Below, in pieces: positions 44,681-64,000 of a DNA stretch of 64,000 nucleotides. The notes under the pieces are model-generated. The model did no database searches. It saw only the letters and a list, made by a program, of their open reading frames with translations, and was not told the origin of the DNA. Position 1 is the first letter of the stretch. Every line of letters starts with the position of its first letter. A program made the position numbers and the translations under genes. The stretch is from Herpetosiphon geysericola (GTDB lineage: Bacteria; Chloroflexota; Chloroflexia; Chloroflexales; Herpetosiphonaceae): NCBI RefSeq assembly GCF_001306135.1, contig NZ_LGKP01000042.1, positions 62,001 through 126,000 on the forward strand, written 5' to 3'.

Positions 44681-44720
44681 AAGGGGAAATAGAAGAATAG
44701 AATAGCGGAGTCGATATGGC

Positions 44721-46328: not shown

Positions 46329-49300
46329 ATGAGCCCCGTTTCACGCCGTTTATTCTCCTTTGGTATCCTAATCTTTCTCATGTTAAGTGGATTCATACGC
46401 CCACAACGCGCTCTTGCGGTTGATCCCTATATTGCTATTACTATTAATTCTCCTAATCCAGGCACCAGTAAAGTTGGAACGGATACGACCATAAATCTTT
46501 CTGTCAATCTCTCAGCTCCTTCGCAAGGGACCTTATTAGTCACCATAGGACCACCAAGCTCGTCGCATCTTGGAGGATATACTAGCTATCAGTGCTTAAC
46601 ATATACAGCTATAGCATCACAACGCTATGACCTCTCCTTTCCGCTTGAATCTCCTCCGGCTCCACAAAATCAGCAGTACAGAATTTCAGCTTACTTTCGA
46701 CCTCAGAATCCCTCAACCTGTCCAACGTTCTCTTCATCAATGCCAGGATCTGTGACAACTTCTGCACTTTATGAGATGGATTGGCAACCGGGTGAAGCGC
46801 CTCCGATTATCCTGAGTGGTCCATTTATTAATGTTCATTCCACCTCAGCCGAAGTTCGATGGACTACTGATCGACCTGCAAGTACGGAGCTAATTGATAT
46901 TGATCCAGATGATAACATTGAGGTGATTAAAAGCGTTATTGGCTATGAACACAAGCTGTGGATTTCGCGCCTGTATCCTGGTGATACCTATAGCGTGCAA
47001 TTTCGATCATGTAATAGCGTTGGATGTAGCGCTACTCGTTCCACAGCATTTACAACGAAGCCGGGGTGCCTCCAAATATCTTTCTTTCATGATGGTAGGT
47101 TGCAAAATCCTGATTGGTGGAATAATGAATGGGATAGACCAATCCGCCTAGATATTGGTGGTGTATCCCCAAAACAGTATCAAATTCGCATTCGAGCGCT
47201 GGTTGATACTGCTGCAGCAGCAAGTTCGTCTGCACGGTGGGAGCCACATACAATAACTCATATTGGCGATCTCTCTTATCAAGCGTCCCTTCCTGATTTT
47301 ACGCATGGTGGCCTCCGCAGCTACGGTGATACAGTAGGGCGCTATCAGTTAACGAAGTCAGGAACCATCGCTTCTGATGGCGGCACCGATATTTATTATT
47401 CGTTGCCAGTGTTTAAGTCGATTGATGTGCGTTCCTTAAGCATTAACCTTTCTATTACAGGAGGTCGTGGTCGGTACAACGGTCATGAAAGTGGCATATG
47501 TCCAAGTAATACAGCAACTGAAAAATATGGAAATGTCCGGTTCTCATATCGTCCCACTCCCCTCAGTACTGGGCAATTTCAGGTAACAGAGGGGGATGTC
47601 CGCCTTTGGGAAAGCATTAAAGACGAAGAGGCCAAGCGGAAATGGACCGACGATGCAATGCTCAATGCGTTTGGTTTCTTGCCAGCGCCATATTGGTTTG
47701 GTGTGGCGTTGACGGTTGGCCAAATAGCACTAGGATACAATAATCTCGATGAAGCCGATGTTTCTACTATCGATAACTTTATTCCAATCGATAATGAGAA
47801 CGTAAAGTGGACGGTATATAGTATCGCCGGTGTCGGGGTTAATGGCCAAGCAACAGCACACCGCTCATATTATGTGATGTATGGTCGGAGAATTGTGACG
47901 AGTCCAGAAGGACAAACGCCTCCTATCATTGAGCCACGAGTATGGCAGGGAATCGTGCATGGCTATCCGCGTTGGCTTATTGGGTCAAGTGCCCAAGTTA
48001 AATTTACGGACTGTCAGGCTTGGAATGGTTCAGTCCTCAATCCCGAAGCCTGTATGGGTGTCGAATCTTTTTCACCAATTGAACTTCAAGCCCAGGATAC
48101 GAATGGAAATATTCTTGATAAACACACCAATACGCTCGGTGGCATGTATAGTGTCATTCCAGAGTCGGATGGAGGCATTGGGGAAGATCTTTGGGGACCT
48201 TCGTCCGATTACACGTATCGCATTCATGGAGTTGCGAGTGCTCCATTTTCCCTTTTCTTTATTCGTCCATATCAAGGTAAATGGCAGGGCATTTTGTATG
48301 ATCAAGTCCCGATTCAACAAAGTCAAACCCTCTCTCTCGTGATACCTAGTGAAGGTTATGTCCCTGCACTTCAATTACCAAACGGTCAGAATCTTTGGCC
48401 GGTTGATTTTGTTTCTCCTAAGACTAACATTATTCCTGATCCTATCATTCCGAATGGAAATAATGGCTGGTATACCCAAGATATTACTATCACCACGCAG
48501 GCTTTTGATAATTTGACTGGTATAGCACATACGCTTTGTCAGATAAATGACACGACATGGTTTACCTACACACAGCAATTTATTATCTCTGAGGAACGAG
48601 GCGATAATCAAGCATCCTGTTATTCTACTGATAATGCAGGAGCTCAAGAGGATCTGCAAAAGGCTTTCTTCAAACTTGATAAAACGCCACCAACAACAAC
48701 AGTATCCATAACTGGAACATTGGGGCAGAATGGCTGGTTTACCTCAACGGTGGAAGTAATATTTCAGTCCTATGATGCAACATCAGGCATTGACTATACC
48801 CAATATCGCATTAATGGTAGTCAGTGGATGAAGTATAACCAGAGATTATATATTGAAAGTGAAGGTGTCCATATACTCGAATTTCGCTCGGTTGATCGTG
48901 CTGGAAATATTGAGCAAGATCATTCCCAACAGGTGAAAATCGATAAAACTCCACCACAGTTAGACGCATGGTTGAATCAGTTAGATTACCTTCGTCTCGA
49001 TATGCTCACACTCAACTATACAGCCACTGACAGAGTTTCAGGTGTGTATACAGTGACAGCAAATCTGTTGGGAGATGCAATCACCAAAAATCGCCCGTAT
49101 GAACTCTTATGGCCACCTGTAGGACAACACACACTTTCTGTCGTTGCCCAGGATTTTGCGGGGTGGACGTCAAGCCAGTCTCTTCCATTTTCCTTATCAA
49201 CGAATCTCGAACGCTTACGAGCAACGATACTGCGTCTTCGAGTGCTGAAAGAAATTGATCGTGATGGTATTGTGAATGGTCTTACCACGAAGGTTGATGG

Positions 49301-49460
49301 GGCTATTACTGCGTATCAGCGAGGTAAAATTAATGTTGCCATTAACCATATAAATGCCCTCATCCATGAGGTTGAAGGGATTCGTGATCATCGCATTACT
49401 GTGCGAGGAGCTGATTTGCTGGTTGATGATAGCTCCTACATTCAAGAGCATATACGGTAA
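46329..49460 (+). CDS. Large secreted adhesin-like protein with fn3 and OmpL47-type repeats
   Basis: 1043 residues from the ATG at 46329, which has AAAGGAGG directly upstream. Signal peptide to about residue 33 (R-A-L-A-V-D). An fn3-like domain near residue 160-240 (S-A-E-V-R-W-T-T-D-R-P-A-S-T-E-L), a less defined middle, then two OmpL47-like beta modules (D-K-T-P-P-T-T-T-V with W-M-K-Y and S-V-D-R-A-G-N-I) near residues 700-870 and an F-I-V-A-R-like helical tail. No enzyme motif. Probably a cell-surface or matrix protein. The IS982 copy lies six bases after its stop codon. Confidence 0.8.
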   Translation: MSPVSRRLFSFGILIFLMLSGFIRPQRALAVDPYIAITINSPNPGTSKVGTDTTINLSVNLSAPSQGTLLVTIGPPSSSHLGGYTSYQCLTYTAIASQRYDLSFPLESPPAPQNQQYRISAYFRPQNPSTCPTFSSSMPGSVTTSALYEMDWQPGEAPPIILSGPFINVHSTSAEVRWTTDRPASTELIDIDPDDNIEVIKSVIGYEHKLWISRLYPGDTYSVQFRSCNSVGCSATRSTAFTTKPGCLQISFFHDGRLQNPDWWNNEWDRPIRLDIGGVSPKQYQIRIRALVDTAAAASSSARWEPHTITHIGDLSYQASLPDFTHGGLRSYGDTVGRYQLTKSGTIASDGGTDIYYSLPVFKSIDVRSLSINLSITGGRGRYNGHESGICPSNTATEKYGNVRFSYRPTPLSTGQFQVTEGDVRLWESIKDEEAKRKWTDDAMLNAFGFLPAPYWFGVALTVGQIALGYNNLDEADVSTIDNFIPIDNENVKWTVYSIAGVGVNGQATAHRSYYVMYGRRIVTSPEGQTPPIIEPRVWQGIVHGYPRWLIGSSAQVKFTDCQAWNGSVLNPEACMGVESFSPIELQAQDTNGNILDKHTNTLGGMYSVIPESDGGIGEDLWGPSSDYTYRIHGVASAPFSLFFIRPYQGKWQGILYDQVPIQQSQTLSLVIPSEGYVPALQLPNGQNLWPVDFVSPKTNIIPDPIIPNGNNGWYTQDITITTQAFDNLTGIAHTLCQINDTTWFTYTQQFIISEERGDNQASCYSTDNAGAQEDLQKAFFKLDKTPPTTTVSITGTLGQNGWFTSTVEVIFQSYDATSGIDYTQYRINGSQWMKYNQRLYIESEGVHILEFRSVDRAGNIEQDHSQQVKIDKTPPQLDAWLNQLDYLRLDMLTLNYTATDRVSGVYTVTANLLGDAITKNRPYELLWPPVGQHTLSVVAQDFAGWTSSQSLPFSLSTNLERLRATILRLRVLKEIDRDGIVNGLTTKVDGAITAYQRGKINVAINHINALIHEVEGIRDHRITVRGADLLVDDSSYIQEHIR

Positions 49461-49465
49461 GATCT

Positions 49466-50486
49466 ATACGCCTGATGTGAGTTATGACGAAAGAAACGCT
49501 TGACAAAGCAAGACGGAAGTCCGACGATGGATGTGCTTACCAACCATCAACAGGAGTTCCGTCCATGCCTAGTATACCATTTTCTGATGTGATGACCATG
49601 CTGTATGTGCTGGTTGATGATTGGTATCAATCAACCAACCGTTCTCCCAAGGCAGCTGCCCCAGGGCCGGCTCCCGCCCTCGCGCCAAGCGAGGTGCTCA
49701 CCATTTTGTTGGCAATGGATCTGGTACCCTTTCCCAGCGAACGCGGCTTCTTAGGATTTCTCCGGTCAACGCATGGCGATCTATTTCCAACCCTGCCGCA
49801 CCAAAGTCAATTTAATCGCCATGCCCGCCGACTGTGTGGTCTGCTCGAACCCGTACGTCGCTCATGGCTCGCGTCATGGGCCATGGTGGACGGCCCACAG
49901 GTCATCCTTGATACCAAACCGATTCCGGTCATGGGCTATACGCGTCCGAAAACCCGCAGCGATTTCGCTGGAAGCGCGAGTTATGGCTATTGTGCCAGCC
50001 GAAAATTACCGTATTTTGGGTATAAACTGGTGATGCTCACGACCCTCGATGGCATTCCGGTGGCCTATGACCTTGTACCGGCCCATACCGATGAGCGCGC
50101 CGCTGCGGACGAAATTCTGGACCAGATCACCAATGCCGACGTGTGGGCGGATAAAGGATTTCTCGGTGAACAGTGGCATCAGGAAGTCCGAGCCACCACC
50201 GATAATCGCATCTGGACGGCCAAACGCCACAACCAACGGCAGAATCCTGCGCCATTTGATTCCCTGCTCGGGTCGATCCGCGAACGGATCGAAGGGACGT
50301 TTCATGAACTGCAAAACACGGGACGGAACAGTGAGCGCTTGTTGGCCAAAACGGTGGAAGGCTTGGTAACGCGCATTGCCAGTAAGGTGACGCATCTCGT
50401 CGTGAAGGCCGTGTTGCGTGCGCGATTTGGCATTGATGTCCTCACCTTTACCGTGATCAAAGAAGTCTAACTCACATCAGGCGTAT
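49466..50486 (+). mobile_element. IS982-family insertion sequence, complete
   Basis: 1021 bp bounded by 19-bp perfect inverted repeats ATACGCCTGATGTGAGTTA (49466-49484; complement at 50468-50486). It encodes one transposase. A clear target-site duplication is not visible at the ends (flanks GATCT and CTATG), so it may be old or a recombined copy. Confidence 0.85.
49565..50470 (+). CDS. IS982-family transposase
   Basis: 301 residues; start at 49565 chosen for GGAG eight bases upstream. DDE-type catalytic core with V-I-L-D-T-K-P-I-P-V (first Asp), V-W-A-D-K-G-F-L-G (second Asp) and R-E-R-I-E-G-T-F-H-E-L (Glu), plus G-Y-K-L-V-M-L-T-T-L-D-G-I-P, as in IS982 and IS5-related enzymes. The frame is intact, so it should be active. 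GC is higher than in the flanks. Confidence 0.9.
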   Translation: MPSIPFSDVMTMLYVLVDDWYQSTNRSPKAAAPGPAPALAPSEVLTILLAMDLVPFPSERGFLGFLRSTHGDLFPTLPHQSQFNRHARRLCGLLEPVRRSWLASWAMVDGPQVILDTKPIPVMGYTRPKTRSDFAGSASYGYCASRKLPYFGYKLVMLTTLDGIPVAYDLVPAHTDERAAADEILDQITNADVWADKGFLGEQWHQEVRATTDNRIWTAKRHNQRQNPAPFDSLLGSIRERIEGTFHELQNTGRNSERLLAKTVEGLVTRIASKVTHLVVKAVLRARFGIDVLTFTVIKEV

Positions 50487-50631: not shown

Positions 50632-50679
50632 AATCAGAACAACTCGGGGTGGTCTTGACCACCCCGAGTTGTTCTGATT
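50632..50679 (-). terminator. 23-bp-arm terminator at the end of the 50.6-64 kb array
   Basis: Nearly perfect palindrome 50632-50654 / 50657-50679 around the stop codon of the SWIM gene at 50678, with A/T-rich flanks; it ends the minus-strand array. Confidence 0.8.
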
Positions 50680-51927: not shown

Positions 51928-53670
51928 TTATTTGGTGGTCTGATATTTTTTGAGAATACGGCCCAGTCGAGTCGGCAATTCATTGAGATTGGCAACACCA
52001 ATGGTCCATTCCGGACTGAAGATTCGTTGAACAGAACTGATAGAGCCTTGATCTCCGATAAAAAGGCCAATGACCAGCGTGTGTTGTCGCCGCACACGGA
52101 CAACATTGTCGCGAACTGTTTCCCAGGGTTCATCGACAGGCTGGCCGTCATGAATGTAAATAATGAGTTTACGCGCCTCTGTTCGTTCACGGAGTTTCTG
52201 CTGAGCAATGGCAAGTGATTGGCTTACTGCTTCAACACCACCATCGCCATACATCCCTGCGATAAGCGCGCGTGGCCCTTCCGCATTAGGTGGGGTTGCC
52301 CAATCACGAATCCACATGACTGGTGAGGGAGGACTATAGACATGGTAGCGATCCAAGTGGGGTGATTGAATGCGATCCCGTGCATAACCAATACAGAGTG
52401 GAATAGCCAGATTGGCGCACGCTCGATCAAACAGTAGGGTAGCCCTCCGCATGTGGGGAAGTCGGCCATGATTAAAGGAGTTCATATCGCTCGGGCGGCC
52501 ATCAGGAGTAATGCCCTCCAATCCGCCCCCCATTGAGGTTGTTCCGTCCAAGAGAAGGACAATTGCCATACCTCCTGGATCATCGGATTCATCTTCCTCA
52601 CGCACAACCGGAGTCCCTCCCTTTGATCGGACACATGTACGGCTATCAAACCGCCCACGCCGATTGTTCGCAATAGGGTCTCTATCTGGAGTCTGTACTT
52701 TGAGTTCCTTGGTGAGCCGACGTACATCTCCCAGGATGGATTCTTGAAGCTCATGATAGGGCTGTGGCCATAAGGTGCCACCGCTTGGATCGATGTCTAA
52801 TGCTCCAGAGGAGAGGAGCATATCTTCAATATCAGGATCATCGACAAGCGTGGGTGCTGCCTCGCTGTCGATATGTCCATCAAGGACGATCATCGGATCA
52901 TCACTATCACGGAGACCCATTGGACTACCGTCGGGTGCGTTGCCTTGAAGTACAAGGGCTATCGTATTATTTTCAGGTGCAATATCAAGGTGTTGCAGGA
53001 TGTCAAGTGCTATTTCTGAGACACGCTGGCTTGTAGGCGCAACCCAAGCTGCTTCGACGAGTGGCTTAATTGTTTCATGCCAGAAATCGTGATCATCGGG
53101 TGGAATTGTCAATTTTGACGTGCTCGCAGCTGGGCGTTCATGATCCCAACGATGTGAGAGACAGCTGTTCAACAAGGTGCTGTTTCGATCACCTTTCTCA
53201 GGTTGAATATTCATCCAACATCGCAAGCCAAGCTCAGCAAAGTCGCGTGCAGCAGGGCGATAGTATGCGGCTGTAAGCCGCTCCATTCGTTCGTCCTCAA
53301 GCGCATTCCAGAGCCACTTATGGGTTGGCCCATATACCGTTGGGTTGTCGGTAAAGAGCACATGGCCGCCTTCGTGGAACGCTAGCGCTCTCGCAGTCAC
53401 TACTTGGAGGGTGCTGTCTCTCACGATTGATCGTCCTCCCCACTGACATGGCACACGACGAGCGTCAGGAGCCATGTCATCAGGAAAGTTTGGTTTGACC
53501 GCAATTGTATGCGTAGCCCAGTTTATCCATGAGCCAGCATCTGGCCCAGGATCTGGATTATATTTGACTGTAAAGGGTCGTGCACCGATAAGGACACGAA
53601 CCCATTCTTCCAGACGTTGTTTCGCGCGTTCTTTATCCCACCATTTAAGCCAAGTCCGTGGTGTTGTCAT
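51928..53670 (-). CDS. VWA-domain protein with HEGGH metallopeptidase-like motif (CobT/YehP-like)
   Basis: 580 residues; GAGGA six bases before the ATG. The N-terminal part has A-F-H-E-G-G-H-V-L-F near residue 99 and an E-D-E-R-M-E helix, the arrangement of a zinc metallopeptidase fold seen in CobT-like proteins. The C-terminal half is a VWA domain with D-G-T-T-S MIDAS near residue 375. With the MoxR-type AAA gene just upstream it forms a MoxR-VWA chaperone pair. Such pairs insert metals or remodel protein complexes. The HEGGH could be structural only. Confidence 0.8.
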   Translation of the reverse strand: MTTPRTWLKWWDKERAKQRLEEWVRVLIGARPFTVKYNPDPGPDAGSWINWATHTIAVKPNFPDDMAPDARRVPCQWGGRSIVRDSTLQVVTARALAFHEGGHVLFTDNPTVYGPTHKWLWNALEDERMERLTAAYYRPAARDFAELGLRCWMNIQPEKGDRNSTLLNSCLSHRWDHERPAASTSKLTIPPDDHDFWHETIKPLVEAAWVAPTSQRVSEIALDILQHLDIAPENNTIALVLQGNAPDGSPMGLRDSDDPMIVLDGHIDSEAAPTLVDDPDIEDMLLSSGALDIDPSGGTLWPQPYHELQESILGDVRRLTKELKVQTPDRDPIANNRRGRFDSRTCVRSKGGTPVVREEDESDDPGGMAIVLLLDGTTSMGGGLEGITPDGRPSDMNSFNHGRLPHMRRATLLFDRACANLAIPLCIGYARDRIQSPHLDRYHVYSPPSPVMWIRDWATPPNAEGPRALIAGMYGDGGVEAVSQSLAIAQQKLRERTEARKLIIYIHDGQPVDEPWETVRDNVVRVRRQHTLVIGLFIGDQGSISSVQRIFSPEWTIGVANLNELPTRLGRILKKYQTTK

Positions 53671-53690
53671 ACTGTATCCTCATTGAGACA

Positions 53691-53747
53691 CAGGATGTTC
53701 GTACCGCACGGCATGAACATCCTGATCAAGGTTGTATGCCATGCGGC
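53691..53747 (-). promoter_or_regulatory. Interleaved inverted repeat, leader of the VWA gene
   Basis: Minus strand: CCGCATGGCAT (53746-53736), A CAGGATGTTC (53724-53715), B' ATGCCGTGCGG (53714-53704), A' GAACATCCTG (53700-53691). One B/B' position is a G-U pair, which favours RNA structure. Confidence 0.7.
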
Positions 53748-53756
53748 AGGGTCGTA

Positions 53757-55739
53757 TTAGAGAATTTCTGGAGCGTGGCGGGTCACAATGTTGACTAGGG
53801 CTGTAAAGACGGTCTGATCACGACGACTGCCCTTGAGTGGACAGACCATATCGATCCAGACATCTTTTGCTGCGGTGATAAACGCATCCTTGATTTGTAC
53901 CCGTCCTCGCGTTTTTGTGGCTGTAGCTGCCCAGCGCTTCACATCAATGCCCCAGTTAATGAGGATTGCGAGGTTGGTCTCCATCACGAGGGATTCCTCT
54001 TTAGCCTGATAGGCTTGAACCTCTTGGTCAGCGCGAATGAGCGCTGAAATGAGTGCATGGGTGGCAGGGATATCGAGGTGCTTGGCCAAGATCTGGGCCA
54101 ACTCCTGCGGGGTATAGGGATCGAGTTGATAGAATCCCGCAGTCCACCTCCGGCGGAAGGCGGGATCACTCAGATCCATGCCTTGATAGGAATCGCCTAG
54201 ATTCGCGGTCGCAATAATCTTAACCAGATCTATGGGGAATACGAAGGTTTCCATCGTATCGAAGACACGGACGATGTGATATGGTCCTGCTGTCTCGGGA
54301 ATGGGAATACCCATCGCACTTAATTCATCAGCTGTATAGGTGTTTAGCAGATCCATCACACCATCAGCCACGGATTTATGACCGCGGGCAAGCTCATCAA
54401 GGATGAGTACGACCTTTTCTCCTTTGCTGGCGCGACGTGCCCAGCTCACGACCGGGCCATCACGCCATTCCCAGCGACGATCTTCATTCTGGACGGACGT
54501 ACCATACACATGTTCATCCTTGACACCGGGCTTGAATACAACGATTTCCAAGCCCCAACCATTCGCGATCGCGACTTGTTTTGACCACATGGTTTTTCCT
54601 GTAGCGGTTTCGCCATAGAGAAAAAGCCCACCTGGTCGGCAAAATGCACGATTAATTCGTTCGTAGCTGCTTGTTCCCACCACCGGGAGTATTTTTTTCT
54701 TTTGCTCTGCTGCAGCGTGTTCTGCTGCTTTTGCGTCAGCTGCTGCCATCTCCTTGCGCGTTACTTCAGCACGTTCAGCATCTGCTTTCTTGGTCGATTC
54801 CTCCGCCGATGACGGTTCAGGCTTTGGTTTGCGTACTCGTGCGGGTTTGGGAGATTTTGGCGCTGCTGGAGCAGTCGTTGGTGGTGTTTTTGTGTCTGGG
54901 TCGCATGCAGGTGCTGTGTCGACATCAAGGTCGATATCGAGGTCACCATCGAGGTCGCCGTCAGGCAAGCGTGTTTCCGTTGGAGATGTGGATGGGGCTT
55001 TCGCTCCAGCCATATCCCGCTCATCCACTGTATAGGGATTCATTAATTCATTCGACAGAAGCCGCGTGGTTCCTTCATGTCCATGAAGAACTGACGACTC
55101 TTGAACAAAGACACCTCGAATCGTGCTGATGTCCGGTAATGGATAACACATGGCAAAGTACAGTTCATCAGCAACATTTTCAATGGCCTTCCGAATCCAT
55201 GTATTTGCCGCTGTGTTCTCGCACGCTGTGCGGATCGTTCTGCTATCCCAGCCCATGGATGTATCAGTGCGAGGGTAGCAGGCATCCATCTGGCGTAGGA
55301 GGGTATACCACGCGCTTACGAGGGCATTATTTCCATGCGATTCTGCAGTAGAACGAACCACCTCCATCACGAGGCCGACCATCGCTGCCTGATAGGCCGG
55401 GCCATTGATGAAGCCACCAAGCAGGAGATCTGTTCCCCGTCGGTCCCAAGACATTTGATACATGCCGCTGGCACCTAATGACGCGATAGTTACCTTCCCT
55501 GTTCGGGTATCGTCATCAAAGGTGCAGCCACGAACAGCTCCTGATAGAACGGCCAGAATGGCTTGAACAAAGCCCATTCCTAAAGCGCTATCAGTTTTGC
55601 TGCGTTGGGTGTTGTATACGCTGAGGTTGTCTGGTTGAATGCGGTGGCCACGCAGGTAGATATCACCCGAAAGGCCACATACTTTTTTGTTCATCAGACA
55701 GGTGATCGTATCTTTACGGAGGATACTTGAAGTGGTCAT
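53757..55739 (-). CDS. MoxR-type AAA+ ATPase (YehL-like)
   Basis: 660 residues. The start at 55739 has AGGAG nine bases upstream; a longer frame overlaps the leader hairpin. An unrecognised N-terminal 270 residues and an Asp/Pro/Lys-rich linker (D-L-D-G-D-L-D, K-P-K-P-E-P) precede the AAA+ core: Walker A G-E-T-A-T-G-K-T near residue 375, Walker B V-L-I-L-D-E-L near 445, sensor 1 I-I-A-T-A-N-L-G and the Arg-finger region D-P-A-F-R-R-R-W. MoxR ATPases pair with VWA proteins such as its neighbour; together with SWIM proteins the group resembles yehL/yehP/yehQ. The partner complex is unknown. Confidence 0.8.
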   Translation of the reverse strand: MTTSSILRKDTITCLMNKKVCGLSGDIYLRGHRIQPDNLSVYNTQRSKTDSALGMGFVQAILAVLSGAVRGCTFDDDTRTGKVTIASLGASGMYQMSWDRRGTDLLLGGFINGPAYQAAMVGLVMEVVRSTAESHGNNALVSAWYTLLRQMDACYPRTDTSMGWDSRTIRTACENTAANTWIRKAIENVADELYFAMCYPLPDISTIRGVFVQESSVLHGHEGTTRLLSNELMNPYTVDERDMAGAKAPSTSPTETRLPDGDLDGDLDIDLDVDTAPACDPDTKTPPTTAPAAPKSPKPARVRKPKPEPSSAEESTKKADAERAEVTRKEMAAADAKAAEHAAAEQKKKILPVVGTSSYERINRAFCRPGGLFLYGETATGKTMWSKQVAIANGWGLEIVVFKPGVKDEHVYGTSVQNEDRRWEWRDGPVVSWARRASKGEKVVLILDELARGHKSVADGVMDLLNTYTADELSAMGIPIPETAGPYHIVRVFDTMETFVFPIDLVKIIATANLGDSYQGMDLSDPAFRRRWTAGFYQLDPYTPQELAQILAKHLDIPATHALISALIRADQEVQAYQAKEESLVMETNLAILINWGIDVKRWAATATKTRGRVQIKDAFITAAKDVWIDMVCPLKGSRRDQTVFTALVNIVTRHAPEIL

Positions 55740-55778
55740 GCCAGGAAACTCCTTGGTTATAAAAAAGCGCTGACATGA

Positions 55779-55816
55779 CCACCTGCGTATCGCAGATGGC
55801 ATTGCCAGACGATACG
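55779..55816 (-). promoter_or_regulatory. Interleaved inverted repeat, leader of the MoxR gene
   Basis: Minus strand: CGTATCG (55816-55810), CCATCTG (55799-55793), loop CGATACG (55792-55786), CAGGTGG (55785-55779). The loop is fully complementary to the upstream strand; the A stem has one G-U pair. Confidence 0.7.
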
Positions 55817-55841
55817 CGGGAACAGAACTAGGACCATGAAA

Positions 55842-56324
55842 TTAGATATTTGAGGAGAGACGATCGCGGGAACCAGCACGGCTGGCCTCTGCTGTGTTTC
55901 GTTGAAATGGATCAGTAATGGTACTGATGGCATTGATGATGTGCCAGGCTGCTAAATGCCAACACCATCCTGTGGGATTAGCACGCGATGGCCGAGCAGG
56001 ACAAGGACATGCAGCACCATCACAGCTATAGGTCTGAACCTGACGACGCTTCGTACCTGATGCACTTTGGATCGTCAAGATGCCGTCGGTAAATGTCCAG
56101 GGTAAACTCATGGTTCCAAGGACATACTTAATGGCATTTCGCGCACACCGTGCAAAAGATGGGTCATCAAAGTGAGCCACAAGGGCATGTACTTGGTGCT
56201 GTACAACCTGTGGTTTGAGTCGCAATGGTAGTGGGAACACAGGGTACTCCTTTTGGTGCCATTCTCGTAGAAGGGACGGTGTTGCACGAAACCTTGGTAG
56301 GACGTTGTGTAAGGGTCTACACAT
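55842..56324 (-). CDS. SWIM zinc-finger protein (second)
   Basis: 160 residues; the ATG at 56324 overlaps the stop of the helicase gene by eight bases (ATGTGTAG), so it is translationally coupled. The SWIM pattern C-P-C-P-x(n)-C-W-H lies near residue 110-130. The rest is mixed alpha/beta. A second SWIM protein upstream of the MoxR and VWA genes strengthens the YehQ-like reading. No enzyme motif. Confidence 0.65.
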   Translation of the reverse strand: MCRPLHNVLPRFRATPSLLREWHQKEYPVFPLPLRLKPQVVQHQVHALVAHFDDPSFARCARNAIKYVLGTMSLPWTFTDGILTIQSASGTKRRQVQTYSCDGAACPCPARPSRANPTGWCWHLAAWHIINAISTITDPFQRNTAEASRAGSRDRLSSNI

Positions 56325-58785
56325 CCATAGCCCACTGTTCGCGCTCGATTGTGATTGTATTCTTTGCTCCGCGAGGCTTTCCATCAAGCCGAATGATAAC
56401 CGTCTTGTACAATTCCACTGCTTCTGGAGCAGAAGGGGCCTCCACGATGATCGCGAATGGGCCGCTGGAAATGATCACGTCGTCTGGTCCAACTGAGGTT
56501 GCCTCGCGTGCGTGATGCTCAAGACAGCGTGGAGATGGCAATGGAATCTCGTCGGTTACACCAAGGAGATCAGCGATACCACGCTCCATCGATGATTTAA
56601 TGGACTTCGCGCTTTCCTGGAGCATGGCGCGGACATCTGCATTCATCATACTGTCTTCACCGTTACGAATTGCTTTTGCCAGCTCCTCTAACAGTGACAT
56701 GCCAGCGTCAAATTCCAACAGACCTTTGGTGAGATCTGCCCCGTTTAGGATTGCTGCGCTAGCCGCCTTACGGGCAACAACACCGAGTGCACGTTCGCTC
56801 ATCGTGTCGCTATAGCCAACAAAGATGACTTCACAGTCTTGGCGATTGGTCGGGCGATACGCACGGCGTTTTGCCTGAAACAAATCATATAGGCTGTAGA
56901 CAGGCTCGAGTACGACAATGGACGACCATGCAATCAGGTTCAGACCGGTTTTCACGAGTCTGGGATTGCAGATGACGACCTGTGTGTCATCCTCTTCACG
57001 CTCCTTAAACCATTGGGCCCGTTCACCAGGTTTCACGGTTGTTGAGCGGAGGATCGCAATCTTGAGCGGGGTTTCGTGGTTGAGTCCTGCCAGTTCCGCC
57101 ACTTTGTGCTGGAGATCAATACAAATATCGTGCTTATCACCGGTATGCTCGACAAAAACAAGCACACGGCGACCAGTATTAATCCGCTCAGCACAGAATT
57201 CTGCGAGGTACTCGTGATGGGGAAGAATTGTATCTGAAGCTAGGGTATCGGCCTGATATACCTCATTCACAATCTTTGATGCGATGGTGACCTCGCGCCA
57301 TGGTTGATAGGGGTAGCGAAGCGTTCCCCTAAGATACGATGCGAGCGCATCATATCCACCAGCGGCAATCATACGTCTGCCCACATCTTCAAGATCGTCA
57401 TACTGAGCACGAACATTTGGTGGCATGCTCAGCAAGACCATATCTTCCGTATAGCCGGGCATGTTGAACCCCATCTGATCGATAAGGGCCATAACCGATG
57501 TATTTTGGACAATGGTTGCGAGCTGCGCAGTAATACCCGGTCGCTCACGCACGACTGTTTCACAGCGTGATTTACCACTATAGTGGCCAGCATCATCGCG
57601 GCGTTCAATCTCACGGTCAATGACTGCAGTGATTCCTGCTTCTCGGACAAACTGCGGCTGGTTGTTCCAACCCCAGCGATCTATAACGATCTTGTTATCC
57701 ATCCGGAGTAAGAGTCCATACAAGGTACTTGCATACCCGCCATACAATGTCCCGGTGAGGCCGATGGTATAGCGGCTGGCCTTTTTCATCGCGCCAAAAG
57801 CACGACCAAGTGCTGTGGTGAGACCCTTGCATTCGTGGATTTCATCCGCTAGGTACACATCAACCATGCCGGCGTAGCGTTTGCCAATGAGCAGTCCCAG
57901 CGCATAGCGGGCATTGCTGGTCGGTCGTTCTCCAGGTAGAGCACGGTATCCATTCTCGTCATAGTAAAACTCCTGCCATTCTGGTGTTTGCCAGATTGGA
58001 TGCGTGCGATCATGGACATTGTCCTGAACCCGACTGGCTTGGCCAAGCCGTTCGTTACAGTACACACAGGTGATCGTGCGAAGTCCTTTTCGTCGCAGCA
58101 TTGCTGGTGAGATCCCAGCACCTTTTTGATTCAGTGCACGTCGGCCGCAGCGGGGGCAGCATACCCCATGGCGCGGAAGGACAAATGTTTGTCGCAGGAT
58201 GCGATCCCGCTCTCGCTTCCATAGCGGGAGCCGGAGTATCTTCGTTTCCCCATCAGCATTTATGTAGCTATGTTCCCACTGTATTGGTTCATCCGTGGTG
58301 GGGCTCTCTGCATCAGCACCAACGGTTGCCTCAACCTGCTTGGCTTTTTGACGTTGCCGCTTATAGGCAGCCTCGTTGGCCTCGATCTCGGCATCAACAT
58401 TGGCATAGAACCGATCCCGCTTGGCGCGGAGCATGTCGAGTCGTGTTGCTGTAGTGCTTGTTCTGGTGATTGCTCCGCGCTCCAGTTCGCGTATCTCAGC
58501 TCCAAGCGTTGCACCGGAGTCGAGCTTAAGTTTGGAGTTGGCGATCATGCCAACGAGTGGTTTTGTAGGGGTATGCACCGCATCGCGGAAGAATTGTCCC
58601 ACATCTGAGGGGGACTCAAGGATGCGAATATCCCATGTATTGCCAAGATACTGATTCCATTCGTCGTACCATGGTGGCAGTGCTGCCCCTTTTTTGCCGG
58701 CGTAGAAATCAGCGACTTGTTTGGCCTCCCCGATAAGGTGGCCAGGTCCGGTAACAATCGTAACAAATGCACGTGAGCGGGTCAT
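56317..58785 (-). CDS. SF2 helicase, motifs Ia-VI (P-loop lies in the upstream gene)
   Basis: 822 residues. It starts directly before motif Ia (V-T-I-V-T-G-P-G-H-L-I). Motif II D-E-I-H, a zinc ribbon with two Cys pairs (C-C-P-R-C-G and C-V-Y-C), motif III T-G-T-L-Y-G, and motifs V-VI (T-G-L-N-L, Q-A-K-R-R-A-Y-R-P-T) all follow, but there is no Walker A. The missing G-G-G-K-T-S is the last part of the upstream gene's extein, 102 bases away, and an in-frame stop prevents a direct joining. The start has AAGGA ten bases upstream. A four-codon frame (ATG TCA CCA TGA) lies inside the ribosome-site gap. It may be a genuinely split helicase or a recently broken fusion. Confidence 0.85.
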   Translation of the reverse strand: MTRSRAFVTIVTGPGHLIGEAKQVADFYAGKKGAALPPWYDEWNQYLGNTWDIRILESPSDVGQFFRDAVHTPTKPLVGMIANSKLKLDSGATLGAEIRELERGAITRTSTTATRLDMLRAKRDRFYANVDAEIEANEAAYKRQRQKAKQVEATVGADAESPTTDEPIQWEHSYINADGETKILRLPLWKRERDRILRQTFVLPRHGVCCPRCGRRALNQKGAGISPAMLRRKGLRTITCVYCNERLGQASRVQDNVHDRTHPIWQTPEWQEFYYDENGYRALPGERPTSNARYALGLLIGKRYAGMVDVYLADEIHECKGLTTALGRAFGAMKKASRYTIGLTGTLYGGYASTLYGLLLRMDNKIVIDRWGWNNQPQFVREAGITAVIDREIERRDDAGHYSGKSRCETVVRERPGITAQLATIVQNTSVMALIDQMGFNMPGYTEDMVLLSMPPNVRAQYDDLEDVGRRMIAAGGYDALASYLRGTLRYPYQPWREVTIASKIVNEVYQADTLASDTILPHHEYLAEFCAERINTGRRVLVFVEHTGDKHDICIDLQHKVAELAGLNHETPLKIAILRSTTVKPGERAQWFKEREEDDTQVVICNPRLVKTGLNLIAWSSIVVLEPVYSLYDLFQAKRRAYRPTNRQDCEVIFVGYSDTMSERALGVVARKAASAAILNGADLTKGLLEFDAGMSLLEELAKAIRNGEDSMMNADVRAMLQESAKSIKSSMERGIADLLGVTDEIPLPSPRCLEHHAREATSVGPDDVIISSGPFAIIVEAPSAPEAVELYKTVIIRLDGKPRGAKNTITIEREQWAMDV

Positions 58786-58830
58786 GGTGACATAATCCTT
58801 TCAAAAAAAAAGAACGCCGAATCACCATGA

Positions 58831-58878
58831 CACGCCCCAGTGGGCGTGCGATGGGATCGCAGTGTCCACTGGGGTGTG
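58831..58878 (-). promoter_or_regulatory. Hairpin in the gap between the two helicase halves
   Basis: CACGCCCCAGTGG (58831-58843) against CCACTGGGGTGTG (58866-58878), one wobble, enclosing GCGAT-ggg-ATCGC. It is nested and not interleaved. The unit is the only sequence between the P-loop gene stop and the helicase ribosome site. Confidence 0.65.
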
Positions 58879-58886
58879 ATCATTCA

Positions 58887-61556
58887 TCAAAGAAGCCCTG
58901 AATCATCGAGGTGATGGAGAATATGGGCAATGCCTAGCCCAATACTGGTGTTATGGCTGACAATTCCGTTGGAAATGAAGGCATGGGTTTCTGGTACTGT
59001 CAGGTCATAACAGGGCTGGAGTCCAGTATCTTCAATGGTGACGATTTTGTCCCAAAAGAAGGCTGGGGTGGTGAGTGACTGGAGCTCAGGATAATGCTCA
59101 GCCATCTGGCGAAGTTTTGCATATCCAGGTGCCTGTAATTTGCGGAGATACATCCGAAACTCACGGGGAACCTTGTCGAACTGAATCGCTGGGAGATGCG
59201 GAACGACGTCGATATTCGTATTCGATGTGATTGGCAAGAGATGTCTGCGCTCCTGCTTGCGTTCAAGGCGAAAGCCGATATGCTCGTAAAACGCCTTGGC
59301 CTGGGTCCCGTTCATGGCGATCATCCATGCGCCTGCCTTCGAGTTGGGCCTAAACCGCCGGGTGGCAATGATGCCAAACTGGAGGAGCAAGAGATGAACC
59401 TGGTGAGCCAGGCGTTTTGATGCTGAGCAGAATTCAACCGTTCCATCATTCAGGGCTGACCCATCGGTATCAAACAAGCCTTGCAAGAACGCACGGATGA
59501 TTGACTGGGGAGCCTGAAGAATGCAGGGTGGGATTTCCTTGTGAAGTGATAGAACGTTCATGAATCCCAGCTGATTGAGCCACTCCTTGAAGAGCCGACT
59601 ATGGATACGATAGCCGTAGGAGGCGTTTTTCGTTTCAACGAGCGTTAACCCCATAGGCTTAATCTCAGTGCTGATGGCATTGAGCAGGGGGGCATCGGCT
59701 GACGTAAAGCCGACACTATTAATATGCCGCATACATCCGTCCCCTAGGATCAACCCAAACAGATAGGCTAGATCCTCGGTAAGATGTGATGGATATTCCA
59801 CAGGTTTTGGATGTCCTCCCGGGATGTTGATAGGGGTGAATGGCGGCAACGCTGTCGTATTGCCCCATACCTGATCATGGCGCTGAATGGCGATGTACTC
59901 ACCAACGGTGACATCAGCAAGCTGTTTCCACCGTCGCTCTCCATCGCGGCCGAGCACAAGAACGGGGTGGACGAGTGTTCCAGTTAGCTCATATCCGCAG
60001 CGTGACATAACACGCAGAGTGCGTTTGACACCGCTGTTGTAAAAGTGGCTAGTGTGACGGGGACCATCCGGTGTTTGCACAACGATATCTAGTCGAGCAA
60101 ATGAGTCCTCTGGCGTATGGGCAGGCATAAGCGATTCAATGGAGACAAGCCCTTGTGCTGTTGGGATAAGAGTTCCGGCACAAACGCACTTCCCGCCGCC
60201 CATTTCGACGGCCAGAAAGCCGGCATCAGGGGTTTCCCCCCACGCATCATCGTAGGTCGTCAAAAATCGCACCATCGCTGCTGCGAGGTGTTTTTGCATC
60301 GGGATAAGTCCAGGCTCATAGCCAGGAAGTGCCCGCCCGTCAGCTCGTTGGAGGTCGTTTAACCAGCCGGCCGTCAGCGGGTCCATATCCAAGCCGTATT
60401 TCGGTGGGGCCGCAGTCGTGACCGCATCTAGGAGGCTTTGAGCCGTCCCTTTGTTGGCCATCAGTTCTGCCATACCGCGATCACCGCTGTAACACCGAAG
60501 TGTTCCATCGCTTTCATCAAGCGTAAAGACCACGGGGACTCGCCGAGTGACATTGATCGTGTCTGTGATCGTAGCGCTGGTTGTTTCCCTCGTCTCGGTG
60601 TATTTTTCGGTTTTCTCTTCGGTTGATCCTTTAATCAGTTGCAATCGGCCACCGATTTCGAGGACTTCGCCGTTGATTTCGCCGTCGGCAATCCGGATCA
60701 TAGACTGGGACGGATTGAGCGGTGCTGCAGGGCGCAGCCGGGCATGAGTCAAGGTTCCGTGGGCGGCCGTATGGCTTTTTGAGCGCCAGGCTCCTCCACC
60801 CTTGATCACATCCTGCATCGCCATCGTTGGCGTACCGAGCGACCCATCCTTCCATATGATCTTCTTCTTCGTGCCAATGGGCTTCGGAAGGACATACAAC
60901 GATTCCGGCTGCTGCTCTAGGATGGGGAGGTCGCTGGCCAAAAGTTCTTTGATCCGGGCTGCTTCAGCGCGAAGCTCGGTGCCAATACGCGGAACGTCAC
61001 GCACGACCCCAAAGACAACGGCCTCTCGCCAGCGCCGGTGCTCGTCAGGAAATTGATAGATGCGGAGGTTGTCATAACACCGTGCGAGGTGATTGACCCC
61101 TTCCTGGCGGGCGAAGATGTCTTGCGGGGTGACCAAGATAGTAACACCACCGGGCTGCACCCAGCCCCCTTCTTCGATGACGCGGCGGAATCCTTTGATT
61201 TCCAGCCGACCACCGCCTTCGTGCTTCGTGTCTTCACTGAAGGGTGGATTGAGGTATGCCAGTTGGCTAAAGTGGCGTGTGGCTTGGAGCGCCTTCAAGG
61301 TGTCGCAGCACGTCACGTGGGTGGCGTGTGTGGCACACTCTTTAGCACGCTCATCGTGGATATCATTGAGATAGAGTCGTCCAGTTGGGATAGCACACTG
61401 GGCTGCAATAATGCTGGCTGCGATAGCACGACCGGCATAGGCATCCAGCATTCGGGCCGCCCCATGGGGGTCGGATACAAACGACGCCATCATTGCGGCG
61501 ACATCTGCATGGACTTCTTGGAAGCCGAAATCGGTCCAGTTTGCGATACGAGCCAT
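58887..61556 (-). CDS. DUF6094-like methylase-helicase N-terminus with intein in the Walker A motif
   Basis: 889 residues before splicing; AGGAG nine bases before the ATG. The N-terminal part reads as a methyltransferase-like fold (L-D-A-Y-A-G-R-A SAM loop and Y-L-N-P-P-F catalytic motif). After about residue 440 comes the extein junction E-M-G-G-G-K, the intein (residues 457-869), then T-S-I-G-L-G-I-A-H-I-L and the stop. Spliced, the P-loop reads G-G-G-K-T-S. The protein then stops exactly where motif Ia should follow; that motif begins the next gene. The mature product is about 476 residues. Confidence 0.85.
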   Translation of the reverse strand: MARIANWTDFGFQEVHADVAAMMASFVSDPHGAARMLDAYAGRAIAASIIAAQCAIPTGRLYLNDIHDERAKECATHATHVTCCDTLKALQATRHFSQLAYLNPPFSEDTKHEGGGRLEIKGFRRVIEEGGWVQPGGVTILVTPQDIFARQEGVNHLARCYDNLRIYQFPDEHRRWREAVVFGVVRDVPRIGTELRAEAARIKELLASDLPILEQQPESLYVLPKPIGTKKKIIWKDGSLGTPTMAMQDVIKGGGAWRSKSHTAAHGTLTHARLRPAAPLNPSQSMIRIADGEINGEVLEIGGRLQLIKGSTEEKTEKYTETRETTSATITDTINVTRRVPVVFTLDESDGTLRCYSGDRGMAELMANKGTAQSLLDAVTTAAPPKYGLDMDPLTAGWLNDLQRADGRALPGYEPGLIPMQKHLAAAMVRFLTTYDDAWGETPDAGFLAVEMGGGKCVCAGTLIPTAQGLVSIESLMPAHTPEDSFARLDIVVQTPDGPRHTSHFYNSGVKRTLRVMSRCGYELTGTLVHPVLVLGRDGERRWKQLADVTVGEYIAIQRHDQVWGNTTALPPFTPINIPGGHPKPVEYPSHLTEDLAYLFGLILGDGCMRHINSVGFTSADAPLLNAISTEIKPMGLTLVETKNASYGYRIHSRLFKEWLNQLGFMNVLSLHKEIPPCILQAPQSIIRAFLQGLFDTDGSALNDGTVEFCSASKRLAHQVHLLLLQFGIIATRRFRPNSKAGAWMIAMNGTQAKAFYEHIGFRLERKQERRHLLPITSNTNIDVVPHLPAIQFDKVPREFRMYLRKLQAPGYAKLRQMAEHYPELQSLTTPAFFWDKIVTIEDTGLQPCYDLTVPETHAFISNGIVSHNTSIGLGIAHILHHLDDSGLL
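58950..60188 (-). other. Intein with LAGLIDADG homing endonuclease
   Basis: 413 residues from Cys457 (C-V-C-A-G-T-L-I-P-T) to the terminal His-Asn (I-V-S-H-N) before Thr870. Block B-like T-L-V-H-P-V, two dodecapeptides L-F-G-L-I-L-G-D-G and L-Q-G-L-F-D-T-D-G, and C-terminal E-T-H-A-F-I-S-N-G are all in order, so splicing and endonuclease parts look intact. The insertion point between Lys and Thr of a P-loop is a common intein site. Confidence 0.9.
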
Positions 61557-61579
61557 AGTGAGTCACTCCTTATGTACGT

Positions 61580-61636
61580 GTGCGGAGTGTCCAGGTGGCC
61601 CACAGGTGCGGGCGGTCACACTGGACACTCCCGCAC
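61580..61636 (-). promoter_or_regulatory. Interleaved inverted repeat, leader of the intein-bearing gene
   Basis: Minus strand: GTGCGGG (61636-61630), CTGGACACT complement AGTGTCCAG (61629-61621), CCCGCAC (61612-61606), CTGGACACT (61594-61586) and then CCGCAC (61585-61580). The GTGCGGG strand can pair with either CCCGCAC copy, one competing with and one extending the other stem, as in a switch. Confidence 0.65.
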
Positions 61637-61645
61637 AGGGTTTGT

Positions 61646-62926
61646 TTAATCAAGCGATTCATCATCGTCATGCTCAGCGTCTGCTCCTTCAGAGACAATC
61701 ACGGGCATGAGGATGGTTTCATCTGGGTCATTAAGCCCAAACATTTCAATGGTTCCATCCGCATCAGGAACACCAACGCAGAATGAAACGATTTTTCCCC
61801 AACGGGTGCACTCGCCAGCAAGAACCCAATACCCGGTGCAGCCGGATGCTGGGATCTTGATGATGAGCCCAGCTTTGATACCCTCTTCCCATAGTCGAGC
61901 CGCCCACTCATGGCGAACTGGCAGGGGAGATGCAATATCCAACTGGTTAAAGAAGTGATCAAGATCAGCGATGCCATCTTCTCCCGTGATATGGAGAAAT
62001 GGCTGACCTACCTTTGGACGGTGGACCGTCCAATGTTCGACGACGATATGTCCGAGGCCGCTGGTTTCGAGCGGCGCATCATTCCAATGCTGACGATATT
62101 GCCCTTTTCCTTCAACACGGCGGGCTGCTGTGTAGAGTGGCATGTCAGCAATGCGATAGCCGAGGGCAACCAAGGGATTCCATTCGCGCGTCGGGAGTTT
62201 GACCAGCGCTCGCTTGGAATCCATAAAGGTAGCCCATAATGCCGTCAGTTTCTTATGTCCCCCAACAGCGCTGAAATACACAACTTCAGGAAATTGTCCT
62301 GAGGGTGTGAGCGTTGCTGGAAGGGCTGCCCAACACACCATGTCTACGCTGGCCTTGCTGGGCAATTCGGTGATCATGGGTTTTCCATCGCGCATATGAT
62401 TGCGCAGCGGATTGTTAGGGAGTGTTCTGATAAGCGACTCACCATCTTCATTGATATGCCACGAGGTACCACCGAGTGCTGTTAAACAGACAGCAAGGTG
62501 GATTGGCAGATGGTCGAGATCAGGCACATCAGTGCTTAATCCATAGTCATAGAGCCGTCGTTGTTTCCACCAGACGGTAAGTGTCTCCGCAAAAAGCATT
62601 TGGGTGATGCTTCCATCTGGGTTTGCATGCCCAACACTAGACAGCAGCGCCGTATGAATATCTCGCAGGAAGTTACTAAGAAAGCGAACGTAGGTGTATG
62701 GGCGCTGCCATGTTGCAGGGAGCCGTTCCACCTTGGCTCCATACCCATAGTAATAGGGTAGTAAGCGAAATCCTAATGTGGGCAAGATGCTGTCTGCCAT
62801 CGGATCTGCAAGAACCAGTTTCATAGGCTCGCTGGTTTCGCTGACGTTCTCAGCAGCCTTGTGTGCACGTGCATGAAGTGTGTGAATCGCCTCTCCGTCA
62901 GAGAGGCGAGAAAAAATACTGTTCAT
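61646..62926 (-). CDS. Hypothetical 426-residue protein
   Basis: ATG at 62926 with GGAGG five bases upstream; a longer frame is less likely. No known domain. Sequence alternates helices and strands with conserved-looking aromatic and Pro residues (P-Y-Y-Y-G-Y-G-A-K-V-E-R) and an acidic C-terminus (E-H-D-D-D-E-S-L-D). Located between the methylase-like gene and small plasmid genes, in the same orientation. A role in the modification/helicase system is possible but unsupported. Confidence 0.65.
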   Translation of the reverse strand: MNSIFSRLSDGEAIHTLHARAHKAAENVSETSEPMKLVLADPMADSILPTLGFRLLPYYYGYGAKVERLPATWQRPYTYVRFLSNFLRDIHTALLSSVGHANPDGSITQMLFAETLTVWWKQRRLYDYGLSTDVPDLDHLPIHLAVCLTALGGTSWHINEDGESLIRTLPNNPLRNHMRDGKPMITELPSKASVDMVCWAALPATLTPSGQFPEVVYFSAVGGHKKLTALWATFMDSKRALVKLPTREWNPLVALGYRIADMPLYTAARRVEGKGQYRQHWNDAPLETSGLGHIVVEHWTVHRPKVGQPFLHITGEDGIADLDHFFNQLDIASPLPVRHEWAARLWEEGIKAGLIIKIPASGCTGYWVLAGECTRWGKIVSFCVGVPDADGTIEMFGLNDPDETILMPVIVSEGADAEHDDDESLD

Positions 62927-63005
62927 AAAAACCTCCACAGCCGCCCAGATGAACGGCTGCATCATGCAATCGTTCCCTTGGAGCGGCGTGAACGGTTCGG
63001 TTCAA

Positions 63006-63425
63006 TCAGATCAGGCGCGCTAGTGCCTCGTCAAGTCGTTGGAGAAGCTGGCCCGAATCATCTGTGTGAACAAAGGTTGTGGTCGCCAAACTATGTTGTT
63101 CGCTTACTCGCCAGTGGCGTGAAGCATTAAAACATACTTCGACTGAGATTCCTTGTGGGTTGAGTAAATCGTTGTTACCTCCTCCTGTTGGAAGAGTAAA
63201 CCGTGCCATCCACGCAATATCACGTTCATAGCGAACGCTATACTGTGTGGTAAAGGTTGTGCCAAATGCCTGCTCAAAAAGAGCTTGGGCGTACGCTGCT
63301 GTGAAAATGCCGCGAGTGCAGTCTTCTTGTGTGGCCCATTGAAGGGGCCAATAGTGGATATTTGGGGCTGAATCGTCGCCAATCCAATGTTCATATGTTG
63401 GATCATGCGGGTCATAGAGGTACAT
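63006..63425 (-). CDS. Hypothetical 139-residue protein
   Basis: ATG with AGGAG seven bases upstream. Small alpha/beta protein with several Trp and His in the first 40 residues and no metal cluster or membrane segment. No family recognised. It precedes the 426-residue gene in the array by about 80 bases and shares its orientation and spacing habit. Confidence 0.55.
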   Translation of the reverse strand: MYLYDPHDPTYEHWIGDDSAPNIHYWPLQWATQEDCTRGIFTAAYAQALFEQAFGTTFTTQYSVRYERDIAWMARFTLPTGGGNNDLLNPQGISVEVCFNASRHWRVSEQHSLATTTFVHTDDSGQLLQRLDEALARLI

Positions 63426-63441
63426 ATGCTATCTCCTTAGC

Positions 63442-63494
63442 CATCCTTTCGGACAGCTGCATAAAAAGCGTCCAGAAGAGGAAGGTAAAGGATG
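63442..63494 (-). promoter_or_regulatory. Nested leader hairpin of the 139-residue gene
   Basis: CATCCTTT / AAAGGATG (63442-63449, 63487-63494) enclosing GGAC / GTCC. A nested, not interleaved, member of the leader group. Confidence 0.5.
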
Positions 63495-63498
63495 TATT

Positions 63499-63699
63499 TC
63501 AGGCTACATAAGCATCATCAGTTGGTGTTGATGGTTCGATTGTCGGCTGGAGGATGGGCTTGCTCAACAAGTCATACACAAGCCGATTTAATCGTGTCTC
63601 TGCTTCGAGATAGGTTGGTGCATATCCAACTAATTCTCCATTGAGATAGAGTGCAAAGTCTCCGGTTTTTCGATCATAGACGATCTGTTTTTGATACAT
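63499..63699 (-). CDS. Small plasmid/phage-type protein (66 residues)
   Basis: ATG with AGGAG about eight bases upstream. The core D-F-A-L-Y-L-N-G-E-L-V-G-Y-A-P-T-Y-L-E-A-E is a pattern I have seen in small orphan proteins of phages and Chloroflexota plasmids. The function is unknown. Its leader holds the longest interleaved repeat of the array. Confidence 0.65.
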   Translation of the reverse strand: MYQKQIVYDRKTGDFALYLNGELVGYAPTYLEAETRLNRLVYDLLSKPILQPTIEPSTPTDDAYVA

Positions 63700-63722
63700 G
63701 ACAGGAGCTCCTTCAAAAAGAA

Positions 63723-63780
63723 GGATTGCACACTAGAGTCCCTAATGAGGGCACACCGTGTGCAATCCTCATTAGGGACT
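63723..63780 (-). promoter_or_regulatory. Long interleaved inverted repeat, leader of the 66-residue gene
   Basis: Minus strand: AGTCCCTAATGA (63780-63769), GGATTGCACAC (63768-63758), TCATTAGGGACT (63748-63737), GTGTGCAATCC (63733-63723). Two 11-12 bp stems that cannot both form fully because the connecting strands are too short; a mutually exclusive pair is likely. Confidence 0.75.
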
Positions 63781-63827
63781 AATATGGAACGAATAGAAGG
63801 TATGCTTGTTTGTGATCTGAGGCTCCA

Positions 63828-64000
63828 TCAATGATGAAGCATTGTCTTTGTTTGATTCGCAGTCTGTTGGAGAACTTGTTGTGCCGCTATTTGCAGGGCA
63901 GTACCAGCGGAATCATCTGCGCGTGGTTTCCACACAGTCGCAATATGCGCCAAGTGTTCTACCTGAAGTTCGCCAAGTCTTTTGCCCCGAGTAATGGTGC
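63828..64000 (-). CDS. C-terminal part of a protein running off the right edge
   Basis: An open frame enters from the right edge and ends at 63828. It encodes 56 residues, including T-R-G-K-R-L-G-E-L-Q-V-E-H-L and A-L-Q-I-A-A-Q-Q-V-L, loosely like the C-terminal helical tails of exonuclease or phage-type small domains. No firm assignment. It is in the same orientation as the array and would be its next upstream member. Confidence 0.5.
   Translation of the reverse strand, partial: TITRGKRLGELQVEHLAHIATVWKPRADDSAGTALQIAAQQVLQQTANQTKTMLHH

Follow-up and report, generated by a model that had tools for sequence, protein, structure and literature searches.

Can the ATPase core of an SF2 helicase be divided between two proteins, so that the Walker A motif sits on one chain and the later motifs on another? 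The question is raised by two adjacent reverse-strand genes in a stretch of Herpetosiphon geysericola DNA (64,000 nucleotides of contig NZ_LGKP01000042.1; hereafter, the window, in whose numbering positions are given). The original prediction described a helicase split between motif I, which holds an intein, and motif Ia, at 58785–61556 (a range that leaves most of the second gene outside), and raised the possibility that Walker A is supplied in trans. Inter-domain splits are easily pictured; here, Walker A is parted from Walker B by a cut within the ATPase core.

The upstream gene (58887–61556, minus strand) encodes a DUF6094-like methyltransferase domain followed by the first helicase segment with Walker A, inside which lies a predicted intein; we refer to its product as the N-part. 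The precursor has 889 amino acids, 476 of which would be left after predicted splicing. Toward the end of the gene, EMGGGK (the 5′ part of Walker A, MGGGK, is at 60189–60203, minus strand) is followed by the intein, then by the C-extein TSIGLGIAHILHHLDDSGLL (58890–58949, minus strand), whose first residue is the Walker A threonine (58947–58949, minus strand), and then by the stop codon TGA (58887–58889), 20 residues past the Walker A lysine. This is the order of elements that had been read at the outset. We take the C-extein to be the helix that follows the P-loop.

The downstream gene (56317–58785, minus strand; 822 amino acids; the C-part) begins with MTRSRAFVTIVTGPGHLIG and comprises the remainder of an SF2 helicase, from motif Ia onward, including a DExH box. 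It carries DEIHE, TGT, VKTGLN, and QAKRRAYRP, and the names that we give to its motif words (Ia, II, III, V, and VI) are presumptive assignments. In alignment with the fused homolog of Khr17, DE.H, TG(T/S), V(K/E)TG(L/M)NLIAW, and QA(K/R)(R/K)RA.RP are kept, and SF2 motifs Ia, II, III, V, and VI are conserved. The C-part also matches the profile of phrog_62 DNA helicase (7.5e-20) and, under Pfam's own cut-off, Helicase_C (0.0019). A P-loop pattern scan of the six C-parts considered below found no Walker A. It should be noted that a P-loop-like AGHY(S/D)GK(S/T) occurs at residues 386–399 in three of the six and is absent from the other three; because it lies downstream from motif II and is unconserved, we do not regard it as a Walker A. 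The pattern scan and the motif alignment thus bear out the claim that the second gene starts at motif Ia and has the later motifs without a P-loop.

Where the Herpetosiphon genes are cut, the fused homolog runs unbroken through the split site (GCGKSPCSAGAAEVIRQLLPTNQGRAFTVLVVAPNHLIG in Khr17), and, on this gene (L042), the match of the window N-part ends 12 nt from where that of the C-part begins. With the fused Khr17 protein as query, there was no sequence match to a solved structure at E ≤ 1, and an AF2 model of the fused core, built from a seven-row alignment, had a mean pLDDT of 40.7 and is too poor for use. Upstream lies a partner gene (61646–62965, minus strand; 439 amino acids) that is conserved beside split and fused forms: the window protein is 34% identical over 300 amino acids to that encoded at the matching place on pHAU01, which in turn is 30% identical to that encoded upstream of the fused helicase of OHK40.

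The cut occurs at the identical place in all six copies found in five Herpetosiphon genomes. These are the window copy, a second copy on another contig of the window's own genome (C18, which has no intein), the pair on plasmid pHAU01 of H. aurantiacus (Haur_5232 and Haur_4999), and those of G034, G043, and G078. N-parts stop 17–20 residues past the Walker A lysine, and each adjoins a C-part. Both parts are present in five of the six genomes of the genus and neither in the sixth (G274), and no fused ORF was found in the genus, from which all intact split copies come. The window N-part is 45%–46% identical to the intein-free N-parts of the other Herpetosiphon copies. Walker A is present in 6/6 N-parts and DExH in 6/6 C-parts, so that motif I is always on the N-protein and motif II on the C-protein, whereas fused and other relatives carry both in one chain, as a single-chain SF2 helicase does. 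The six copies, together with the fused homologs and the purifying selection described below, support the reading of a single SF2 helicase that is divided between motifs I and Ia, with Walker A on a separate protein. Neither outcome named at the outset as a refutation turned up: the genus yielded no fused ORF, and the C-parts no second P-loop.

The gap between the two cistrons (58786–58886, minus strand) is 101 nt long, one fewer than the 102 bp first counted, and the "in-frame stop" ascribed to it was inexact because the two ORFs do not share a frame (offset 2). The second ATG has a ribosome site in front of it, as originally noted (GAAAGGA, 58796–58802), and equivalents are found in all other copies (AGGAG in four, CGGAG in G043). 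The fold of 58780–58890 has a predicted energy of −49.9 kcal/mol (z −5.7; the gap of pHAU01 gives z −3.5), with a first hairpin at 58832–58877 and a second predicted stem at 58781–58831 (both minus strand). The latter, known from the fold only, encloses the ribosome site and ATG; in both the window and pHAU01 types, the predicted fold would place the ribosome site within a stem. In the five close copies (i.e., all but that of the window), 74 of 95 gap columns are invariant and pairs are 84%–93% identical; fourfold sites of the flanking genes are 69%–81% identical pairwise. The stretch before the N gene is likewise conserved in these copies (61 of 89 columns invariant), as are the first ~100 nt past the C gene, and inverted repeats can be seen by eye before the N gene and after the C gene. 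The window stretch ahead of the N gene folds strongly (z −5.5), as does 53671–53756 (z −4.6); five other stretches range from −2.2 to +1.2. Thus, the hairpin that had been pointed out is real, but it is not specific to the split, because two other intergenic stretches of the operon fold strongly too, and the gap looks like other conserved intercistronic regions of the operon. A family of mobile gap elements was considered and rejected, there being one match per genome; no second gap match was found at E ≤ 0.01 in the six genomes of the genus. No known RNA family scored above its gathering threshold in 53000–64000 (three subthreshold matches were judged to be chance), and no intrinsic terminator was called in the gap, where a scan showed no excess over shuffles.

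Many perfect or near-perfect inverted repeats occur in the window as a whole, several of the longest being intergenic (e.g., 19858–19912, 50632–50679, and 39400–39455). Other features include a large protein at 46257–50470, with a subthreshold Ig-like match, that adjoins a DDE transposase gene, and a set of genes at 37976–45521 of PAPS-reductase type (37976–39427), with HATPase_c_3 (40028–41713), and DpdA-like (44721–45521; Pfam 3e-27). Together with an FtsK-like gene at 28164–29735, this set looks like a DNA-modification or defense island.

Is the joined or the split state the older one? Matches at 1e-20 were found in 11 of 82 genomes of the order, and a search of the class (158 genomes, 1e-40) returned the same 11. 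The junction is continuous and full-length in Khr17 (Chloroploca) and OHK40, where both parts form one gene, and continuous as far as the contig end in C. asiatica. The copy of Viridilinea mediisalina is broken (a deletion over the P-loop region plus further breaks), with the end of the helix still continuing into motif Ia, and that of C. mongolica is without the N half, so that its junction is unreadable (these two broken copies are loci L055 and L056). Of the 38 match places in Chloroflexota beyond the order, 29 were examined at the junction, nine short or broken ones being left out. Walker A and motif Ia lie in one ORF at 27 of the 29, and the other two are unreadable (L023/L074 is cut by a contig end; in L029/L070, the upstream half is out of frame). 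Three of the 27 were accepted beyond the motif pattern: L076, with a variant P-loop, by eye, and L064 and L073, which have an intein in Walker A. A first viral scan gave no relative and a second gave one viral contig, which is joined; there were also four remote matches among phage records. One further fragment (L058), on a contig labeled as a Gemmatimonadaceae MAG, is 94% identical to the fused helicase of Khr17 and represents either a misbinned contig or a recent transfer.

Plasmids offer a different comparison. From 65 matching records, ten plasmid helicases were chosen (Thermus [two], Oceanithermus, Thermoanaerobacterium, Paenibacillus, Priestia, Vibrio, Shewanella, Stutzerimonas, and Paraburkholderia); all are joined and have their own Walker A. 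In nine of the ten plasmid regions, DUF6094 and the helicase are two genes, adjacent or nearby, cut at the domain border. The Herpetosiphon cut lies ~120 residues past this border, after Walker A, and differs from an ordinary domain border because the plasmid helicase gene has its own P-loop. Given that Walker A and motif Ia are joined elsewhere, the joined state is most simply ancestral. The homolog search for an ancestral fused form that had been proposed at the outset is thereby answered, with the nuance that, in most of these plasmid regions, DUF6094 is a gene of its own beside a helicase with a complete P-loop.

The plasmid DUF6094 proteins match the pHAU01 N-part over its first ~350 residues, and this N-part itself matches Pfam DUF6094 (PF19587; 1.8e-10, 40.5 bits, cut-off 22.8). 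Khr17 scores 26.8 bits against the same model; OHK40 was not among the matches at E ≤ 1, and the intein-bearing window N-part had no DUF6094 match at E ≤ 0.1. DUF6094, the N-domain of the relatives, is an uncharacterized family of methyltransferase-like proteins. NPPF is present in 6/6 N-parts and DPCAGEG in five, words that we take to be the catalytic motif and the SAM-binding motif I, respectively. In the window copy, the latter is the degenerate DAYAGRA (61425–61445, N-part residues 38–44), so this N-part may not bind SAM normally and the window copy may be changing function. The pHAU01 N-part also has a weak match to PADLOC mads_2 (7.5e-6), and RadC, DnaN, RepB, ParA, or conjugation genes are close by in some plasmid regions. 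From such neighbors, one might guess at a role of the module in plasmid/ICE DNA maintenance, modification, or anti-restriction.

One genome of another family, G420, complicates the history. Its N-part is damaged and stops at the same place (...GTGKTAMGLCAAELLRQLDEQGAF-stop); its C-part, on another contig, starts near ...RSRAFTVIVAG and is damaged as well (L099 and L100, contigs 96 and 594). The contig ends overlap at 130 of 131 bases, which would put about 407 nt between the parts. In a C-part tree without G420, the six split copies fall on one side of a branch (94/83), beside the fused ones. With G420 and outgroups included, there is a near-trichotomy of the window copy, the five close copies, and G420 plus the fused pair. 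The best outgroup-rooted tree places G420 with the fused pair (91/93) and requires two changes, and the split copies come together in only 8% of 200 bootstrap trees, yet a single split clade is not rejected (p-AU 0.15). These trees are compatible with a single fission followed by re-fusion, with two fissions at a shared site, or with a single fission in which G420 is misplaced in the tree.

The intein of the window copy (58950–60188, minus strand; 413 amino acids) lies between GGGK and T of Walker A, as precursor residues 457–869. It has what is expected of an intein from its sequence: splicing blocks, Cys1, a C-terminal His-Asn followed by Thr at +1, and a LAGLIDADG endonuclease domain (Pfam Intein_splicing 9.6e-11, LAGLIDADG_3 1.9e-18, NCBIfam intein_Cterm 3.1e-8). 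Its other matches in the same genome are weak (2.8e-5, 2.5e-4). Could it have caused the split? This was rejected, as the five other split copies are without an intein and unsplit homologs in G120 (L064) and G112 (L073) have inteins at the identical Walker A position; most simply, the intein is later than the split. With three such cases (window, G120, and G112), Walker A is a recurring intein target in the DUF6094-helicase family. A second intein of L073 lies in motif II, where L070 (G225) has an apparent one too.

We consider it probable that natural gene fission within the first RecA-like domain produced this pair, and that the two proteins assemble into one ATPase. A DUF6094-helicase of plasmid/ICE type would have been cut such that the N-protein kept the methyltransferase-like domain with strand 1, the P-loop, and helix 1, and the C-protein everything from motif Ia onward. 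Each half would have its own translation start, and the proteins would join with Walker A provided in trans, the last ~65 residues of the N-protein filling the gap in the core of the C-protein. In the window copy, the intein would have to splice out of Walker A beforehand. The cut presumably lies in the loop between the post-P-loop helix and the motif Ia strand, a position that we take to be permissive for fragment complementation.

How well do other explanations account for the same observations? An assembly error or a decaying pseudogene might be suspected from the visibly broken copies of C. mongolica, Viridilinea, and G420. A check of the assembly at the split had been advised, and six loci in five assemblies agree on it, including that of pHAU01, which is described as a complete circular Sanger sequence in the excerpted text of PMC3368417. 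The reading frames are intact, and across the ten pairs among the five close copies, dN/dS is 0.077–0.152 for the N-part and 0.082–0.174 for the C-part, well below 1. The split is old and conserved and is not a sequencing error, both halves are under purifying selection, and decay or misassembly is hardly credible. It could also be that the two proteins work apart, the first as a methyltransferase with a leftover P-loop tail and the second as a DNA-binding, nonhydrolyzing protein, as might be expected if the ordinary state were that of the nine plasmid regions in which DUF6094 and the helicase are distinct proteins. We think this unlikely. Constraint on the tail (LPGY to the end, which contains the P-loop) is no weaker than on the methyltransferase body, with a dN/dS of 0.063 versus 0.113 for the rest when summed over pairs of the five close copies, a difference that is rough given a tail of only ~65 codons. 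Similarly, identity between the window and the close copies is much the same for tail (0.45–0.49) and body (0.45–0.46). Moreover, Walker A and DExH are kept in every copy, and the halves always occur together in the genus.

Alternatively, recoding might yield some fused protein, either by a ribosome hop or, in C18, by stop readthrough, with the gap as signal. The gap is strongly structured, with a near-invariant core in five copies, and in these five close copies (L003/L004 and four others) the C frame is open across the gap to the N stop. In C18, the C frame is the N frame, with a single UAA between the ORFs. Further, in each of the five, the last sense codon of the N gene is found again in the C frame, upstream of AFTT, which is what a hop would require (AAA at ORF codon 4–9 in four; in pHAU01, ACA, which lies five codons ahead of the ATG). 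Against this, gap lengths are 101, 93, 94, 95, 92, and 94 nt (window, C18, pHAU01, G034, G043, and G078, respectively), or 2, 0, 1, 2, 2, and 1 modulo 3. Relative frames thus take all three values, so one readthrough or frameshift cannot fit all copies, and we rejected either as a shared mechanism. Take-off and landing codons match in five of the six copies only. The window copy lacks a landing codon, even a synonymous one, which excludes a hop there; a stop also lies in its C frame, six codons upstream of the ATG. The landing codon of pHAU01 differs. The recurrence itself is expected ~0.8 times by chance (AAA makes up 2.0% of codons, 95 of 4691, with ~39 candidate positions). Every copy has a ribosome site and ATG for the second gene, and the gap is not the only intergenic stretch of the operon to be conserved and folded. 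Taken together, recoding seems very improbable, although a hop is less easily dismissed in the five close copies.

Assembly of the two proteins around a P-loop supplied in trans is the best explanation, because selection acts on both halves and they occur together. A stronger version, which we put forward tentatively and would sooner doubt than assume, is an obligate two-protein SF2 motor that fires only with its methyltransferase-like partner docked and, in the window strain, only after splicing. If true, the break would be no neutral accident but a regulatory joint that is maintained; and if the G420 break at the same site and the fused sister lineage are taken at face value, the joint would have been opened, or opened and closed again, repeatedly. 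The split has lasted while copies diverged to about 45%–50% identity. It offers a natural case in which to ask if two chains can make up a RecA-like domain, and if a helicase can be switched by a methyltransferase-like partner that supplies the P-loop.

In the literature that we searched, no helicase with a break between motifs I and Ia is described, which is no proof of absence. The plasmid/ICE pairs of DUF6094 and DEAD/DEAH (SNF2-like) helicases consist of homologous proteins, yet their helicase genes own Walker A and the Herpetosiphon helicase is cut after it. The reverse gyrases of Nanoarchaeum equitans and Methanopyrus kandleri, according to excerpts of PMC8185306, each consist of two polypeptides and, like the Herpetosiphon pair, contain a helicase; the N. 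equitans cut is described there as lying between two domains, and the M. kandleri pieces as not matching its two domains.

Split phage enzymes that reassemble form the nearest precedents. As described in parts of PMC2988022, fission in a functionally critical region is known from nrdA of phage Aeh1, whose reductase is fully active though split, and from the T4 topoisomerase gene 60. There, a free-standing homing endonuclease gene is inserted at the break; the Herpetosiphon gap has none. The window intein is unlike these break-point endonucleases, being 20 residues from the break and present in a single copy, and a split by homing endonuclease insertion was rejected, the gaps being just 92–101 nt in 6/6 copies. 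The same excerpts describe a DNA polymerase gene split into 43A and 43B in Aeromonas phages 25 and 44RR; the split in 44RR is made by an untranslated sequence termed IC-UTS, and the phage 25 products copurify and have polymerase activity. Those are B-family polymerases of phages, whereas here the break concerns the P-loop of a helicase at plasmid and chromosomal loci of Chloroflexota; the likeness is that of a core enzyme divided into two cistrons, in 44RR by an untranslated sequence, and the short structured gap of Herpetosiphon is a candidate counterpart of the IC-UTS.
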